A stretch of DNA of 51,505 bases from Burkholderiales bacterium (GTDB taxonomy: Bacteria; Pseudomonadota; Gammaproteobacteria; Burkholderiales; Burkholderiaceae_C): positions 1 to 51,505 of the forward strand of contig JAIXKR010000117.1 in NCBI GenBank assembly GCA_026932235.1. Direction: 5' to 3'. A program made the position numbers and the translations under genes. Positions 7,752-15,982 of the stretch are shown piece after piece (the stretch's first letter is position 1; every line of letters starts with the position of its first letter). The notes under the pieces were generated by a model. It saw only the letters and a program-made list of their open reading frames with translations, was not told the origin of the DNA and did no database searches.

Positions 7752-7924
7752 CGGACTTAGAGTCGCGCCGCGCCGCGGCAAGGCGGCAACACTAGCTCAC
7801 TCGGAGCCCCGTCGGAAAGGTCGCGCCGGCATGACACGCGGGACCGCACGCCGATTTGCGCAGAAAGCACCCGGCAATTCCGCCCCTTCCGCCCTGCCTG
7901 CGGCAGCAGAATCGGCCTATTCGT

Positions 7925-7948
7925 TTGACATATGATGATCGATATACA
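7925..7948 (+). promoter_or_regulatory. AT-rich promoter region of the chemoreceptor gene
   Basis: The 290-base gap before the chemoreceptor contains one AT-rich island. TATGAT (7931-7936) and TATACA (7943-7948) are both acceptable -10 hexamers. A TTGACA at 7925-7930 lies too close to either to act as their -35. The leader from here to the start is about 95 bases. Confidence 0.35.
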
Positions 7949-8041
7949 ACGACTGTGCTTCGGTGCCCGCCTGCCGGCACCCGCCGTCCAGGCCCGTCTG
8001 CAGGCACCCCGACCGCGACGAGACCAAAGGAGACAGACGTG

Positions 8042-10018
8042 GTGAAGAAGCTGATCGCCAACCTGCCGCTGCGGCGCAAGTTCCTCGTTCTGGGACTCAT
8101 CGCCATGCTGATGCTGGCGCTGCCGGCCACGCTGATCCTCTCGGGCGACCTGCGACAGCTCACGACCGCACAGATGCAGTCCGACGGACTGGCGCCGGCG
8201 CGCGCAGCAGTCGAATGGATCCGCCTCACGCAGCAGCACCGCGGGCTGTCGGCGGTCCAGCTTGGCGGCGACGCCGGTGTCGCCGATCAGCGCCAGCGCC
8301 AGCGCGCCGAGGCCGACCGGACCGCGACGCGGGTGGAGTCGGCCGTCGACGCGCTGCGCGACGAGCGCCTGTCGGCCTCGGCGCGCGGGCTCGCGCAGAC
8401 TTGGCGCCAGCTCGCCGACGAGGTCGACGCCGGCAAGCTGACACCGGCGGGAAGCCTCGAGCGGCACACCGCACTCGTGCGGGAGCAACTCGAACTCGTC
8501 AAGGACATCACCCACGTCTCGCAACTCGTGCTGGTGCCGGGCGCGCACACCTACTACCTGCAGGCCGCCGTGCTCGGCCAGCTGCCACGGCTGACCGAAG
8601 CCTTCGCGCAGGCGCGCGGCCTGGGCGTGGCGTTGTTGTCGCAGCGCCAGGCCAGCGCCGAGGACCGCGTTCGCATCCAGGAGCTGCGCAACGCCGCGCG
8701 CAGAACGCGCGCCGACGCGCGCAAGTACCTGGATCTGGCCGTCGAGGGCGACGCCCTCGCGCGCTCGACCATCGGGCCGGCGATCGAAGCCGCGGCGAGC
8801 GCGGGCGAGAGCGCCCTCGAGATGACCGAGACGCACATCGTCCAGGCCGCACAGCTCGAGTTCCCCCCGGCGAAGTACTACGAACTCGCCACGAACGCCA
8901 TCGAGCAGCAGTTCAAGCTCGTCGACGCGTCGAGCGAGCTGCTGGCGGCCTACCTCGCGCGCGACCGCGAGCAGGCGCGCAACGAGATCCTGTTCGTCGC
9001 CGCGGCCTGCGGCGTGCTGGCGCTGCTTGGCGCCTGGGTGATGTGGGAGGTCAGCCGCAGCACCACGCAATCGATGGCCGCTGCCGTGCGCATGGCCAAC
9101 GCGGTCGCCGATGGCGATCTCTCGGTGCAGGTCGAGGCCCGCAGCCGCGACGAGGTCGGCGCGCTGCTGCGCGCGCTGGCGCGCATGCGGCAGAACCTGG
9201 CCGACGTGGTCGGCAGCGTGCGCGACAACGCCGAGTCGGTGGCCATGGCGAGCACGCAGATCGCGCAGGGCAACCACGACCTGAGCCAGCGCACGGAGGA
9301 GCAGGCCAGCGCGCTCGAGCAGACCGCGGCCTCGATGGAAGAGCTTGGCGCCACCGTCAGGCACAACGCCGACAACGCGCGCCAGGCCAATCAGCTCGCG
9401 CAGGGCGCCTCGGCCATCGCCGCCGACGGCGGCGCCGTCGTCGCCCAGGTGGTGGGCACGATGAAGGGCATCAACGAGAGCAGCCGCCGCATCGCCGACA
9501 TCATCGGCGTCATCGACGGCATCGCCTTCCAGACCAACATCCTCGCGCTCAACGCCGCGGTCGAAGCCGCGCGCGCAGGCGAGCAGGGCCGCGGCTTCGC
9601 CGTCGTCGCCGGCGAGGTGCGCAGCCTCGCGCAGCGCAGCGCCGAGGCGGCCAAGGAGATCTCGGCCCTGATCACCGCCAGCGTCGGCCGGGTCGAGGAG
9701 GGCTCGGCCTTGGTCGATCGCGCCGGCTCGACGATGAACCAGGTGGTCGACGCGATCCGCCGCGTCACCGACATCATGGGCGAGATCAGCAACGCCAGCG
9801 TCGAGCAGAGCGCGGGCGTCGCCCAGGTGGTCACCGCCGTCAGCGAGATGGACCGCACGACGCAGCAGAACGCCGCGCTGGTCGAAGAGAGCGCCGCCGC
9901 CGCGGAGAGCCTGCGCATGCAGGCGATGCAGCTCGTCGATGCGGTGGCGGTCTTCAAGCTGCAGACCGGTCAGGCATCTTCCCCCGCCCGTGCCGCCGCC
10001 GGCGCGGACCTTGGGTGA
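8042..10018 (+). CDS. Methyl-accepting chemotaxis protein
   Basis: 658 residues from a GTG start preceded by AAAGGAGA. A first membrane helix (about 14-34), a ~280-residue helical periplasmic sensor, a second membrane helix (about 316-336), a HAMP region (338-390) and a cytoplasmic signalling domain. The signalling domain contains the conserved hairpin tip [20 protein letters not shown] and [18 protein letters not shown]. The sensor begins with [15 protein letters not shown], which resembles the QxxRG entry of nitrate-sensor-like helical domains; the ligand is unknown. No C-terminal pentapeptide tether for CheR/CheB is present. A GTG one codon earlier (8039) is an equally possible start. It is followed after 40 bases by the GGDEF-EAL gene, so the two may be co-transcribed. 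Confidence 0.92.
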
Positions 10019-10058
10019 GCGCACGCCGGGCACCGCGCCTGGGAGGGGCCACAGCGAG

Positions 10059-13040
10059 ATGAATCCGCCCGCCCTTCCCCCCTCGCCAGCGCGCAGGCCC
10101 CGGCTCGCCGAGGCCTGCGCGCCGCGCCGCGTGGGCAGCGTCCTGGCGGCGGCGTTCGCCGTCGCCGCCGCGGTGGCGCTGGCACTCGGCCTCTCCGCAT
10201 CGGAGGCGGCGGCCTGGGCCGTGCCGGGCGGCGTCGGCGTGCTCGCGCTGCTGCTGGCCTGCCGCGCGATCCGGGCCCGTGCCATGCCGTCGTTCGACTC
10301 CACGCGGCTGCAGTCGGTCGAGTCGGTGGTGCGCGAGGGGACGCTCAACTACCGCCGCGTGCGCCTCACGCTCTACGGCGTGCTGGCCGCGCTGTGCTTC
10401 AACTTCGTCATCCAGAACTGGCACGCGCGCCAGACCGAGCAGAGCCGCCGCATCGAGAACGAGGCCATCGAGCTTGCCGCCACCCAGCGCTGGCTGAGCC
10501 AGCGCATCGCGCGGCTGGCGCTGTCGCCCGCTCTCCTCACCCAAGAAGCGTCGGTGCACGAGCTGCGCGCGACCATCGAACAGTCGGACGCGCAGACGGC
10601 GCGCCTGCAGGAGCTCCTGCGCGTGCAGGGGCTGCTCTCCGACGAGGCGCACGCCGACGTCGACCGCGCCTGGCAGGTCTGGATCGCGCGCCGCGCCAGG
10701 ATGACCGCCAGCGCCGGCAGCCTGGCCGACCGCGCCGAGCAGGACCCGCTTGCCATTGCGGCCGGCCAGCCGGCCAGCGTGGGCTCGCTTGCCGATGAGG
10801 CGCTGGCCGGCGTGCAGGGGCTGCTGGACGCGATGCAGGCCACCGCCGCGCGCAGCCACGCCGCGCGCGTGCGACAGACGCAGTTCTGGGCGGCGCTGAA
10901 CATCGTGCTGCTGTCGGTGCTGGCCCTGAGCGCCGTGGAGCCGGCGCTGCGCTCGATCCGCCGCCAGTACCGGCGCCTGGCCTCGCAGGCGATGGACCTG
11001 CAGCGCCTGGCGCTCGTGGCCGAGCGCACGACCAATGCCGTCCTCCTCATCGACGAGAACCGCCGCGTCGCCTGGACCAACCAGGCCTTCACGCGCATCA
11101 CCGGCGTCGCGCCGGCCGACGTGGTGGGCCGCGATGCGCTGGCGCTGTTCACGTCCGCCAGCAACGACGGCCACGCGGCCACGCTGCTGCGCCGCTCGCT
11201 GGACGGGCACGGCGGCGAGCGCTTCCAGTTTCGCCACCGCGCCCACGGCGGGCTGGACATCTGGCTGGACGTCGACATCCAGCCGCTGCAGGACGAGGCC
11301 GGCTCGATGCGCGGCCACGTCGCCGTGTCGGTGGACATCACCCAGCTCAAGCAGGTGCAGACCGACCTGCGCATCGCCGCCATCGCCTTCGATTCCTCCG
11401 GCGGCATCGCCATCACCGACGAGCACGAGCACATCCTGCGCGTCAACCCGGCGTTCACGCGCATCACCGGCTTCGCCATCGACGAGGCACGCGGCCGCAC
11501 CATGGCCGAGCTGCTGCGCTCGGGCCGCCACGGACCGGCCTTCTACGCCGCGATGCACGCCGCGCTCGCGCGCGAGCACCACTGGCAGGGCGAGATCTGG
11601 AACCGCCGCAAGAGCGGCGAGGTCTACCCCCAGTGGCTGAGCATCACCGCGGTGTGCGACGAGCAGGGGCGCACGACGAACTACGTTGCCGTCTTCACCG
11701 ACATCACCGAGAAGAAGCGCGCCGACGAGACGATCCGCTCGCTGGCCTTCTTCGACCCGCTCACCAAGCTGCCCAACCGGCGCCTGCTGCGCGACCGCAT
11801 CCACGAGGCGATCGCGACCAGCGCGCGCAGCGGCCGCCACGCCGCGCTGCTGTTCATCGACCTCGACAACTTCAAGGAGCTCAACGACAGCAAGGGGCAC
11901 GACGTCGGCGACCAGCTGCTGCAGGAGGTCGCCGCGCGGCTGAGCGCGGGCGTGCGCAGCGACGACACCGTGGCGCGCCAGGGCGGCGACGAGTTCGTCG
12001 TCCTCGTCACCGGGCTGAGTGCGGAGGCTTCCAGCGCCGGCGCGCAGGCGGAGCGGCTGGCGGAGAGCATGCGTTGCGAGCTCAACAAGCCCTTCGTGCT
12101 GGGCAAGCTGCGGCACCACACCTCGCCCAGCATCGGCATCAACCTCTTCCGCGGCGCGGAGCACGGCGCGGACGAGTTGCTCAAGCGCGCCGACAGCGCG
12201 ATGTACGTCGCCAAGCGGGCGGGTCGCAACGCCTACCGCTTCTTCGACCCCGCGCTGCACGCGGAGCTCGAGCAGCGCATCGAGCTGGAATCGGACCTGC
12301 GCCGGGCGCTGGAGCTGCAGCAGCTCGAGCTGCACTTCCAGCCACAGGTCGACGAGCACGGCACGGTGACCGGCGCCGAAGCGCTGCTGCGCTGGAACCA
12401 CGAGACCCGGGGCAGCATCCCGCCGGGCGTCTTCATCCCGCTGGCCGAGGAAAGCGACCTCATCGTGGACATCGGCACCTGGGTGCTCGAGGCCGCCGCG
12501 CGGCAGCTCTGCGCCTGGAGCGGGCGCCCGGGATGGCCGGCGCTGCATCTCGCCGTCAACGTCAGCGCCCGCCAGTTCCGCAAGGCCGACTTCTGCGACA
12601 CCGTGCGCGACATCGTGCAGCAACTCGGGCCGGCAGTCGGCCAGCTCAAGCTCGAGATCACCGAGAGCCTGATCCTCGTCGACGTCGACGAGGTCGTCGC
12701 GACCATGCGCACGCTGCGCGCGCTCGGCGTGCGCCTGGCGCTGGACGACTTCGGCACCGGCCAGTCCTCGCTGTCCTATCTGACGCGGCTGCCGCTGGAC
12801 CAGCTCAAGATCGACCAGTCCTTCGTGCGCAACCTCACCCAGAGCCGCTCCGATGCCGTCGTCGTGCAGACCATCATCGGGCTGGCGAGCAGTCTGGGCA
12901 TCGACGTCATCGCCGAGGGCGTCGAGACCGAAGAGCAGCATCGCCTGCTGGTGGCGATGGGGTGCCCGCGCCAGCAGGGCTACCTCTTCGGCCGCCCGAT
13001 GCCGCTGCCCGCCTTCGAGGCGCTCGCGAACGCGCGATGA
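10059..13040 (+). CDS. Membrane PAS-PAS-GGDEF-EAL c-di-GMP signalling protein
   Basis: 993 residues. Hydrophobic segments lie near 24-45, 55-70, 103-118 and 276-295, with an extracytoplasmic helical stretch between the last two. Two PAS domains follow (about 317-440 with AVLLIDENRRVAWTNQAF, and 440-560). Then comes a GGDEF domain with intact GGDEF at 642-646, and an EAL domain with EAL at 774-776, DDFGTG and IAEGVETEEQ. Both catalytic signatures are intact, so synthesis and hydrolysis of cyclic di-GMP are both possible; which dominates cannot be told. GGAGG lies 12 bases upstream of the ATG. It is placed directly after a chemoreceptor, so it may link taxis input to the motility/biofilm decision. 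Confidence 0.92.
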   Translation: MNPPALPPSPARRPRLAEACAPRRVGSVLAAAFAVAAAVALALGLSASEAAAWAVPGGVGVLALLLACRAIRARAMPSFDSTRLQSVESVVREGTLNYRRVRLTLYGVLAALCFNFVIQNWHARQTEQSRRIENEAIELAATQRWLSQRIARLALSPALLTQEASVHELRATIEQSDAQTARLQELLRVQGLLSDEAHADVDRAWQVWIARRARMTASAGSLADRAEQDPLAIAAGQPASVGSLADEALAGVQGLLDAMQATAARSHAARVRQTQFWAALNIVLLSVLALSAVEPALRSIRRQYRRLASQAMDLQRLALVAERTTNAVLLIDENRRVAWTNQAFTRITGVAPADVVGRDALALFTSASNDGHAATLLRRSLDGHGGERFQFRHRAHGGLDIWLDVDIQPLQDEAGSMRGHVAVSVDITQLKQVQTDLRIAAIAFDSSGGIAITDEHEHILRVNPAFTRITGFAIDEARGRTMAELLRSGRHGPAFYAAMHAALAREHHWQGEIWNRRKSGEVYPQWLSITAVCDEQGRTTNYVAVFTDITEKKRADETIRSLAFFDPLTKLPNRRLLRDRIHEAIATSARSGRHAALLFIDLDNFKELNDSKGHDVGDQLLQEVAARLSAGVRSDDTVARQGGDEFVVLVTGLSAEASSAGAQAERLAESMRCELNKPFVLGKLRHHTSPSIGINLFRGAEHGADELLKRADSAMYVAKRAGRNAYRFFDPALHAELEQRIELESDLRRALELQQLELHFQPQVDEHGTVTGAEALLRWNHETRGSIPPGVFIPLAEESDLIVDIGTWVLEAAARQLCAWSGRPGWPALHLAVNVSARQFRKADFCDTVRDIVQQLGPAVGQLKLEITESLILVDVDEVVATMRTLRALGVRLALDDFGTGQSSLSYLTRLPLDQLKIDQSFVRNLTQSRSDAVVVQTIIGLASSLGIDVIAEGVETEEQHRLLVAMGCPRQQGYLFGRPMPLPAFEALANAR

Positions 13041-13066: not shown

Positions 13067-13588
13067 TCAGTCCGAGCGGGAGGCGTTCGCAAGCTCGACG
13101 AGCAGGTCAAGCAGCTGCGCGGCCTTTTCCTGGCCCAGCATGTTCAGCAGCTGCCGGCTCGGGCCCGCGCACAGGCGCTCGGCCTCGCCCAGCAGCAGCC
13201 GGCCGACGTCGGTCAGCTGAAGCCGCTTCTTGCGCAGGTCCGCGGCATCGGCATGCTCCTGCACGAGGCCGCGCTCGCGCAGCGAGCGCAGCACGACCGA
13301 TGTGGTCGAACGGTCGAGCGCAACCATGCGCCCGAGCTCGTTCTGGCTCGCGTCCCTGACCTCGCGCAGCATGAACAGCACGGCATACTGGGAGGGTGTG
13401 ATATCCAGATGGCGGCAGGACTCGGAGAAGGTCGCCGCGGCCAGTTGGTGCGCGCGGCGAAAGAGGAACTCCGGGCTCCCGAAGAGCGCACTGCGCGAAG
13501 ACGGAGCCTTCGGCTGTGGTTCGGCCGGATGGGCATCGACGCGCCCGGCAAGCCTGGAGGCGCGGGCTCTTCTCGAGGGCTCGGTCAT
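13067..13588 (-). CDS. MarR-family transcriptional regulator
   Basis: 173 residues. A basic ~30-residue N-terminal extension precedes a winged helix-turn-helix core: HLDITPSQYAVLFMLREV, QNELGRMVALDRSTTSVVLRSLRERGLV as recognition helices, and the wing DADLRKKR-like segment AADLRKKRLQLTDVGRLLL. Terminal helices would form the dimer interface. MarR proteins usually bind short palindromes next to their own gene and release DNA on binding phenolic or oxidant ligands. A perfect 6-1-6 palindrome lies 14 bases upstream of this start. The gene is convergent with the GGDEF-EAL gene and divergent from the receiver-like gene, which is a natural candidate target. Confidence 0.88.
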   Translation of the reverse strand: MTEPSRRARASRLAGRVDAHPAEPQPKAPSSRSALFGSPEFLFRRAHQLAAATFSESCRHLDITPSQYAVLFMLREVRDASQNELGRMVALDRSTTSVVLRSLRERGLVQEHADAADLRKKRLQLTDVGRLLLGEAERLCAGPSRQLLNMLGQEKAAQLLDLLVELANASRSD

Positions 13589-13615: not shown

Positions 13616-13722
13616 TCCGGGCGTCCGGCACATGCTGCCTGGCCGCGCGCCCATGAATGCCTTACGCGGATCAGAATATCAGGCGTGCATCCGCGCGCAC
13701 ATCCCACTTCCGCGCGATCCCC

Positions 13723-14484
13723 ATGAGGATGAAGGTCATTGTCGTCGACGACGACGCGGCCTCGGTCGCCGCGCAGGCCGGGCTGCTGGCGCACCTGGGC
13801 TGTGAGGTCAGGCCCTACACCGGCACGACGCAGGCCCTGCCCGCGATGCTGTCCGGCGACGCCGACCTCGTCTGCCTCGCGCTGCGGCTGCCCGAGCTGG
13901 ACGGCCGCCAGCTGCTCACCTTGATCCGCTCGCACGAGTACTCGACACGCGCGCCGAGCCTCCCCGTGGTCGCCGTCAGCGGGCATGTGACGCCGGAGGA
14001 CCGCGCGCTCGCGCTGGCCGACGGCTTCGCCGCCTGCCTGGCCAAGCCGGTCCTCGCCGAGCGCATGCACATCGTTCTTGGCCGCGCCATGCTGCTGCGC
14101 AACCACTTGCAGCGCACGCGCTACACGGTCGACCGACACCGCCTCGAGGAGCGGCTGCGCGCGCTGCAGCGCGCGGACCGCACGCCGACGCTGCATGCCG
14201 CGGTGGGGCTCGCGCTGGCGTTCGAGCAGCAAGGACGCACGGCGCTGCTGCAGGCGATGCTCGGTGCGAACGCGGGCGACCTCGTCGCCACGCGCGGCGT
14301 CCTGCTCTCGTTCGCAGCGACGGCCGAGAACCTGGGCGCGCGGCAGCTTGCGGCGACGCTGCGAGTCGCCGCGGACTGGTTCGAGCAGGGCTCGGAGGAC
14401 GAAGGGGTGACGGCGGCCGTGATGGCTCGGGCCGAGCTCGATCGCGTCGTCTTCACGCTGCGCGAGCAGGTGCGGTCGAATTGA
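13723..14484 (+). CDS. Degenerate receiver plus HPt-like protein (both phospho-acceptor residues missing)
   Basis: 253 residues. Residues 1-120 have a receiver (CheY-like) fold with an intact acidic pocket (VVDDD, 8-11), the switch Ser86 (VAVSGH) and Lys108 (AKP). The phospho-acceptor position in the beta-3 strand, however, reads LVCLALRLPELDG: Ala53 (codon 13879-13881) stands where Asp is expected. Residues about 150-250 look like a histidine-phosphotransfer helix bundle (SFAATAENLGARQLAATLR). In the usual H-S-L-K-G-x-A-x-N-L-G-A motif, His is Leu195 and Lys is Ala198. Both domains therefore appear unable to carry phosphate. The protein may act as a phosphorylation-independent binding partner. 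It is divergent from marR and follows the GGDEF-EAL region. An alternative start lies at 13729. Confidence 0.75.
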   Translation: MRMKVIVVDDDAASVAAQAGLLAHLGCEVRPYTGTTQALPAMLSGDADLVCLALRLPELDGRQLLTLIRSHEYSTRAPSLPVVAVSGHVTPEDRALALADGFAACLAKPVLAERMHIVLGRAMLLRNHLQRTRYTVDRHRLEERLRALQRADRTPTLHAAVGLALAFEQQGRTALLQAMLGANAGDLVATRGVLLSFAATAENLGARQLAATLRVAADWFEQGSEDEGVTAAVMARAELDRVVFTLREQVRSN

Positions 14485-14506
14485 AGACGACGGCGGGAGA
14501 CGGGCC

Positions 14507-15982
14507 TCAGGTGCCGCAGAACGTGCGGTAGCGGGCGGTCAGTTCGCGCGCCGCGGGCTCGGTGAAGGCCTCTTCCCCGGGTTGAGCCTCGTAGGGCCGG
14601 CGCAGCACGGCCAGCAGGTGCTCGAAGGGCCCCAGGTCGCCGCCGTCGACCGCCGCGGCCAGCGCCGCCTCGACGCGGTGGTTGCGCGGGATCACCCAGG
14701 GGCTCGCGCGGCGCATCGCAGCGGCGCGGACGTGCGGCGGCGCGCCCTCGGCGACCAGCCGCGCGCGCCAGCGCGCAGTCCAGTCCTGCAGCGCCGCGCG
14801 GTCGACGACGAGCGCCTGCAGCGGCGCGTCGTCGCCATCGGCAAAGTCGGCCAGCGCGCGCCAGGCGAGCGTGAAGTCGACCTGCTGCTCCTGCAGCAGC
14901 GCGAGCCAGTCGTCGGCGAGCGCGGCGTCCCCCGGCTGCGCGCCCGCCAGGCCCAGCTTGACGCGCTGGCCTGCGCGCCAGGCCTCGTCGAACCAGGCCG
15001 GAAAGGCGTCGACCACCGGCCTTGCCAAGGCCACGGCCGCCTCCGCCTCGTCGGCGAGGAGCGGCAGCAAGGCCTCGGCCAGGCGCGCGAGGTTCCAGCG
15101 CGCGATTCCGGGTTGGTTGCCGAAGGCGTAGCGGCCGTCGTGGTCGATCGAGCTGAAGACGGTCGCCGGGTCGTAGGCCTCGAGAAAGGCGCAGGGGCCG
15201 TAGTCGATGGTCTCGCCGCTGATCGTCATGTTGTCGGTGTTCATCACGCCGTGGATGAAGCCCAGGTTCATCCATTGCGCCACCAGCCGCGCCTGTCGCC
15301 GTGCCACCGCTTCCAGCCACCCGAGGAAGCGGTCCTCGCGGTCCGCCAGGTCGGGGTCATGCCGTGCGATCGCGTATTCGGCCAGGCGCCGCAGCGCGTC
15401 ACGCTGCCCGCGGGCGGCGAAGAACTCGAAGCTGCCCACGCGCAAGTGGCTGGCCGCCACGCGCGTCAGCACCGCGCCGGGCAGCTCGCGCTCGCGAAAC
15501 ACCGGCGCGCCGGTGGCCACCACCGCCAGCGCGCGCGTCGTCGGCACGGCGAGCGCGTGCATGGCCTCGCCCATCAGGTACTCGCGCAGCACGGGGCCGA
15601 GCGCGGCCTGGCCATCGCCACCGCGCGCGAAGGGAGTGCGGCCCGAGCCCTTGAAGGCGATGTCGCGGCGGCGCCCGTGGCGGTCGATCACCTCGCCCAG
15701 CAGCAGCGCACGCCCATCCCCAAGCTGCGGGCTGAAGCCGCCGAACTGGTGCCCGGCGTACGCCTGCGCCAGCGGCGCCGCGCCGTCGGGAACGCGTGTG
15801 CCGCCCAAGAGGGCGGCGCCCGCCGCGCCCTGCAGCGCCGCCGCGTCCAGGCCGAGTTCCTCGGCCAGCGCCAGGTTCAGCAGCAGCAGCCGGGGCGCGG
15901 GCGCAGGCGTCGGCGCCCAAGGCACGTACAGGCCTTCGAGCTCGCGCGCGAAGCTGTTGTCGAAGTGAAAGGGTGCAAGCAC
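14507..15982 (-). CDS. selO: Protein adenylyltransferase SelO (YdiU/UPF0061 family)
   Basis: 491 residues, about the normal size for bacterial SelO. Family signatures are present throughout: [14 protein letters not shown] at the N-terminus, [57 protein letters not shown], then [16 protein letters not shown] and the FLEAYDP segment. SelO is a pseudokinase-fold enzyme that flips ATP and transfers AMP to protein hydroxyls (AMPylation), linked to redox stress. The N-D-N-M and D-Y-G-P residues of the metal site are visible. A cysteine sits three residues from the C-terminus (FCGT), as in other SelO proteins where it takes part in redox control. The start is GTG at 15982. Its upstream ribosome site overlaps the TGA of the zinc-ribbon gene, implying translational coupling. 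Confidence 0.92.

Follow-up and report, generated by a model that had tools for sequence, protein, structure and literature searches.

The protein encoded by the gene studied here consists of a receiver domain followed by a tail that is a His-less HPt-like domain in its whole family, a view supported by profile matches to true HPts. In the window genome a kinase has apparently been lost along with the receiver's phosphate-accepting residue. We favour, at a probability of about 0.6, a reading in which the family is a kinase-driven regulator with a His-less HPt-like docking output, paired with a MarR protein, and in which the kinase has here been deleted and the receiver is now a pseudo-receiver. 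Two telling facts go beyond the initial annotation of this DNA: the missing convergent kinase, and the MarR gene, which linkage evidence points to as a co-inherited partner of the family gene. The window is the whole 51.5-kb stretch that was analysed; its relevant features are collected in Table 1, and G and L numbers denote genomes and loci.

Table 1. Features of the window that bear on the REC - His-less HPt-like gene.
Feature	Coordinates	Strand	Basis
NIT-HAMP-MCP chemoreceptor neighbour	7856..10018	+	neighbour annotation
PAS-GGDEF-EAL protein, c-di-GMP neighbour	9939..13040	+	neighbour annotation
MarR-family repressor, divergent partner gene	13067..13588	-	linkage in family loci
CAGAATATCAGGC, -10-like element, divergent intergenic region	13672..13684	+	identical in G066, partly kept in G104/G028/G078/G067
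REC - His-less HPt-like protein gene	13723..14484	+	253 aa then stop (translation)
Receiver domain, residues 5-116	13735..14070	+	Pfam PF00072; D9, D10, S86, K108 kept
Codon 53 = GCG (Ala), phospho-acceptor position	13879..13881	+	alignment to full-length relatives
Residue 105 (K-3 position) = Cys	14035..14037	+	family alignment
HPt-like helical bundle, residues 153-253	14179..14481	+	fold of tail alone, structure search, profile comparisons
Residues 195-198 Leu-Ser-Phe-Ala in place of H-x-x-K	14305..14316	+	alignment to true HPts
22-bp gap, proposed kinase deletion site	14485..14506	.	G066, G104, G005 have histidine kinase gene there
selO, far flank of missing kinase gene	14507..15982	-	neighbour annotation

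The receiver and its missing aspartate

The reading frame of the window gene is already open from 13657, and homology to its relatives starts only at 13723. The receiver is matched by PF00072 at E 2.7e-14, its 53.7 bits lying above the gathering score of 30.2. This match, with the HPt kinship of the tail detected by profiles, bears out the proposal in the initial annotation that a receiver precedes an HPt-like bundle; alignments to relatives and to the HPts L090 and L091 show that it had also placed Ala53, Leu195 and Ala198 in the correct register. It was right, too, about the retention of the frame and of much of the pocket (D9, D10, S86 and K108 are present).

The gene is found in 10 of 81 genomes of the genus, its own included, and a sample of 399 genomes of the family contributed its own genome and one more, G163. 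There are thus 10 full-length relatives besides the window protein, with identities of 39-75%. Searches with a tail profile added three divergent members, G771, G743 and G685, from 399 genomes of another family of the order and one additional member, G466, from 399 genomes of the same family, bringing the total to 15. The phospho-acceptor Asp is absent from the window receiver, where codon 53 reads GCG (Ala), and is present in all 10 other full-length relatives (GAC or GAT). Two bases differ, so that Ala53 is no one-base slip, as judged on the assembled sequence. The window protein thus fits the definition of a pseudo-receiver (ALR), a receiver profile without an acceptor Asp. A scan of the genome's own contigs gave nine weak receiver matches, at 24-33% identity. 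In G771, G743 and G685 the receiver is wholly decayed, with G, P, G and A at the positions of D9, D53, T86 and K108, respectively; G466 has D in the Asp53 column, but E and A at D9/D10, Q at the T position and W at the K position.

The window sequence pairs with that of G066 in the tree (support 94/88, or 92/88 without G466), and the two are nested in an Asp-bearing clade with G104 and G005 (100/99). Since it lies inside a well-supported clade that bears the residue, the loss of Asp53, private to the window genome, is derived on this tree. The initial annotation had spoken of a 'doubly dead' module and had named orthologues with intact Asp and His as one observation that would tell against it. 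Both acceptors are indeed absent from the window protein, but the two absences do not go back to a single inherited state: all 10 relatives keep Asp53, whose loss is private, while His195 occurs in 0/10 of those relatives and in 0/15 of the family. Half of this observation against the module, an intact Asp, has therefore been made. The absence of the His from all 15 members argues that the tail is no relay step that has decayed in this strain.

The K-3 position carries His (n=8), Phe (n=1) or Tyr (n=1) in the 10 intact receivers; it is Cys in the window and in the G771/G743/G685 clade and Val in G466. According to section 7 of PMC12632262, Tyr/Phe at K-3 is the residue used by a published receiver switch. 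The His found in 8 of the 10 intact receivers is unlike that switch and counts against the reading that we favour.

An HPt-like tail without its histidine

A model of the whole protein was poor (pLDDT 58), and for this reason the tail was folded on its own. Structure searching also brought up numerous four-helix bundles of no relation, such as BRIL fusions and designed proteins, so fold alone was not accepted as proof of an HPt. Homology to true HPts is indicated instead by profiles. Outside the family, the tail profile had two matches at close to E 1e-4, and both are true HPts, confirmed by Pfam. Compared by hhalign with five hybrid-type HPts, three of which were called by Pfam and two (L013 and L016) picked by eye, the tail profile gave a probability of 78, with a score of 34.7 against 21.7 at most in 100 block shuffles and 12.1 for the reversed profile. 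The probability fell to 19 when CheA-type and hybrid-type HPts were taken together, and CheA-type HPts alone gave no match (hhalign probability 0.92).

Pfam itself does not recognise the tail. PF01627 found nothing in the window tail at E <= 1, and of 11 members just 2 gave an HPt match, with E 0.53 at best. A piece of the hybrid-type L013, in an assumed frame, had no Pfam match either. When the tail profile was run against PDB sequences there was no HPt among the 15 sequences up to E 10; the best match was a designed protein (E 0.16).

The register of the missing histidine was set by aligning the tail profile (A3), ungapped, to the Pfam-confirmed HPts L090 (AVHQLKG) and L091 (AHTLKSS). Counted along these alignments their His falls at tail position 195, Leu in the window, and their Lys at 198, Ala in the window. 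None of the 15 REC-HPt-like members has an acceptor His at 195, and so the H-x-x-K-G motif is missing throughout. Position 195, central in the face by which HPts usually dock, varies freely across the 15 members.

Apparent loss of the convergent kinase gene

In G066 a 538-residue PAS-PAS-HisKA-HATPase protein is encoded convergently to the family gene, ahead of selO. Its homologues occupy the same site in G104, at 73% identity across 523 aa, and in G005, at 65% across 515 aa; a longer convergent homologue is present in G028 (53% over 509 aa). No adjacent cognate kinase gene of the kind that makes up a two-component pair lies beside the window gene. Both flanks align, the 31 bp between them in the window corresponding to 1,665 bp in G066, and the DNA alignment leaps from G066 position 8326 to 9992 across window positions 14474-14506. 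The sole match to the G066 kinase in the 51.5-kb window has 29% identity and lies at 37.6-39.1 kb, 23 kb from the gene. Beyond the locus, the bin yielded 24 kinase matches, one being the window's own at 37.6 kb, and none of the 24 is near orthologue level: the best by E value has 47% identity over residues 220-533 and the highest identity is 49%, over 276-523. Completeness of the bin is 81% and contamination 5.8%, so that the kinase may have moved elsewhere. Because the window groups with G066 inside the clade of G104 and G005, the tree places the losses of both the kinase and Asp53 in the window lineage.

Among the family loci a kinase was found in the fetched stretch at 8 of the 10 with intact receivers and at none of the 5 with degenerate ones (the window, scored 0 for its near surroundings, G771, G743, G685 and G466). 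The search used tblastn with the G066 kinase as single query at E 1e-6, with Pfam on some neighbouring genes; in the G771/G743/G685 clade no kinase was found within about 8 kb of the gene. The two intact loci without a kinase are G099, whose stretch reaches only 443 bp beyond the gene, and G067, which has only a HisKA fragment nearby and retains Asp53 despite this, counting against a tie between kinase and receiver. Fisher's test on 14 rows, with G099 dropped, gave p 0.003, which is not significant once corrected for the 2 independent pairs on the tree.

The kinases elsewhere in the bin leave room for another role, one near to a proposal of the initial annotation: a phosphate-free protein could act by titration, sequestering a hybrid kinase or some other partner. 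The 24 matches, with one at 37.6-39.1 kb, would supply targets, and plants do have His-less HPts. We nevertheless hold titration to be quite unlikely, for the likely partner kinase is the very gene that is missing from the window locus, and position 195, at the centre of the face by which such a partner would usually dock, varies freely in the family.

The HisKA fragment of G067 (L038:10397-11767) is a segment without an ATPase domain, in frame with a REC-HD-GYP protein; it may represent a fused or cut kinase.

Constraint on the receiver and the tail

A gene that has lost its kinase might merely be decaying, without function. The private losses of Asp53 and the kinase and the Cys at K-3 would fit such decay, as would the receiver changes, which exceed those of the sisters. 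When G005 serves as outgroup, 19 receiver changes are unique to the window and 10 to G066 (chi2 2.79, not significant); in the comparison with G104 the counts are 18 for the window and 5 for G104 (chi2 7.35). The tail tells against decay, having changed no faster than those of the sisters (6 changes against 6 in G066; 8 against 6 in G104), with only 1 of 22 otherwise invariant columns altered. The frame is also intact, with a GC3 of 0.91 similar to that of neighbouring genes, and the G771/G743/G685 clade, whose receiver is wholly decayed, retains tail residues R236, E238, R241, T245, R247 and E248 (the R236-x-E238...TLRE signature). We therefore think it improbable that the window gene is a functionless remnant.

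Relaxed constraint on the window receiver is suggested but not proved, since branch pN/pS for the receiver is similar in G066 (0.80) and the window (0.74), and since G081, which bears Asp53, departs from the family at 4 of the 32 receiver columns that are otherwise invariant, the same number as the window. Among the four nearest sequences each of the six pairwise comparisons gives dN below dS in both domains. Overall the tail of G771, G743 and G685 is no better kept than the receiver (30-31% and 32-34% identity to G066, respectively); E168-Q169 is lost in that clade and the C-terminal signature alone stands out.

The linked MarR gene and its genomic context

A MarR gene adjoins the family gene in 15/15 loci, 14/14 when the window is set aside; it is divergent in 11 of these 14 and tandem in 3. 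Within the genus co-occurrence is complete: the 10 of 81 genomes that have the MarR gene (at least 46% identity) are the 10 that have the family gene. Another three genomes of the genus have MarR matches of 38-39% only, and the stretch fetched around them contains no family gene. In the family sample the fetched stretch likewise lacks the family gene in G360 and G230, two of the five genomes in which MarR was matched. GGDEF, EAL or HD-GYP genes, counted by clustering with Pfam-scanned representatives or by tblastn, are present in the neighbourhood fetched for 12 of the 15 loci; none was seen in G081, and the contigs of G104 and G099 are short. By association only, the REC-HPt-like/MarR pair is thus tied to c-di-GMP signalling.

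The linkage makes MarR a tentative candidate for the partner of the tail, to which we would give rather less than an even chance. MarR might instead regulate no more than its neighbour's transcription in response to a small-molecule cue, leaving the REC-HPt-like protein to act on the c-di-GMP enzymes or the chemoreceptor and never on MarR. The divergent arrangement in 12 of 15 loci, the c-di-GMP genes near 12 of 15 and the related MarR genes of G360 and G230, which adjoin REC-HD-GYP or degenerate-REC-PAS-GGDEF genes instead, all speak for such separate working. It accounts less well for the complete co-occurrence within the genus and for G771, G743 and G685, where MarR is tandem and downstream and the linkage is kept nonetheless. 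We regard it as possible, though we would not bet on it. An operator palindrome common to the species was sought and not found.

In G360 (L121:3726-6121) the related MarR gene is divergent to a REC-HD-GYP gene that is followed by a degenerate-receiver-PAS-GGDEF frame, and in G230 (L122:6958-8349) it is divergent to a degenerate-receiver-PAS-GGDEF protein that stands in place of the REC-HPt-like gene. The tandem MarR gene of G771, G743 and G685 (L092:9412-10960) is followed in G771 by a glucokinase gene.

A proposed mechanism and its relation to known systems

Under the reading that we favour, a kinase-driven regulator paired with MarR, a kinase would phosphorylate Asp53 in most family members, and this may alter how the tail, which bears a conserved RxELDR...TLRE helix, docks on its partner; the likeliest candidates are MarR and the c-di-GMP enzymes of the cluster. 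In the window lineage the convergent kinase gene would have been deleted, with Asp53 changing to Ala and residue 105 (K-3) to Cys. The window protein would then be held in one state and hence be controlled by its amount, presumably through MarR. In a bolder form, the His-less HPt-like domain would be a response-regulator output that docks on MarR, allowing a kinase-receiver switch to work a ligand-type repressor, with the phospho-switch dropped here and in a second clade and the docking pair kept; we consider this form somewhat unlikely. The family can be read as a natural series that runs from an intact receiver with a kinase, through a private Asp loss with the kinase missing, to a wholly decayed receiver; the signature of the tail and the neighbouring MarR gene are retained throughout. 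It would also provide a testable partner for a His-less HPt-like domain from bacteria.

Each part is of a known kind, whether Asp-less receiver, pseudo-receiver or His-less Hpt domain. What is new, as far as the literature was searched, is the family-wide His-less tail behind a receiver, the MarR pairing and the kinase-loss series; a search for the REC/Hpt/MarR combination found nothing, which says little. Plant His-less HPts of the AHP6 type stand alone and have an inhibitor role. The window family shares with such pseudo-HPts an HPt-like bundle without the His, and it differs in that the whole family lacks the His and the tail is not recognised by Pfam, is fused behind a receiver and is paired with MarR. 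ArmR, the antirepressor that acts on MexR, is a small protein that partners a repressor of the MarR type. The working proposed here is the same, with binding predicted and no sequence kinship claimed.

For receivers without the acceptor Asp, figures given in PMC12632262 are 2.0%, with about 4% ALR and about 6% pseudo-receivers; an earlier inference of 13% is also given. Section 6 of the same 2025 review counts 90 of 10,312 bacterial Hpt domains (0.9%) as missing the His, and the review terms the switching of bacterial pseudo-receivers a mystery. The receivers treated in the relevant parts of PMC4395418 and PMC12632262 have in common with ours a receiver profile with DD, S/T and K but no acceptor Asp; in our case, by contrast, the loss is private, the relatives are intact, the kinase gene is missing and the output is a His-less HPt-like domain. 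The HmrABCX relay of Caulobacter also has atypical HPts (HmrB is without HxxKG) and is tied to c-di-GMP and the motile-sessile switch (PMC11481889). It differs in that HmrX has a candidate His (H81), and no receiver fusion or MarR pairing is described in the parts of that paper drawn on here. The REC-HPt ends of hybrid kinases in related genomes (L013, L016 and L090) show the same domain order and a distant sequence kinship, whereas the window family is a stand-alone gene with no kinase part and no His.
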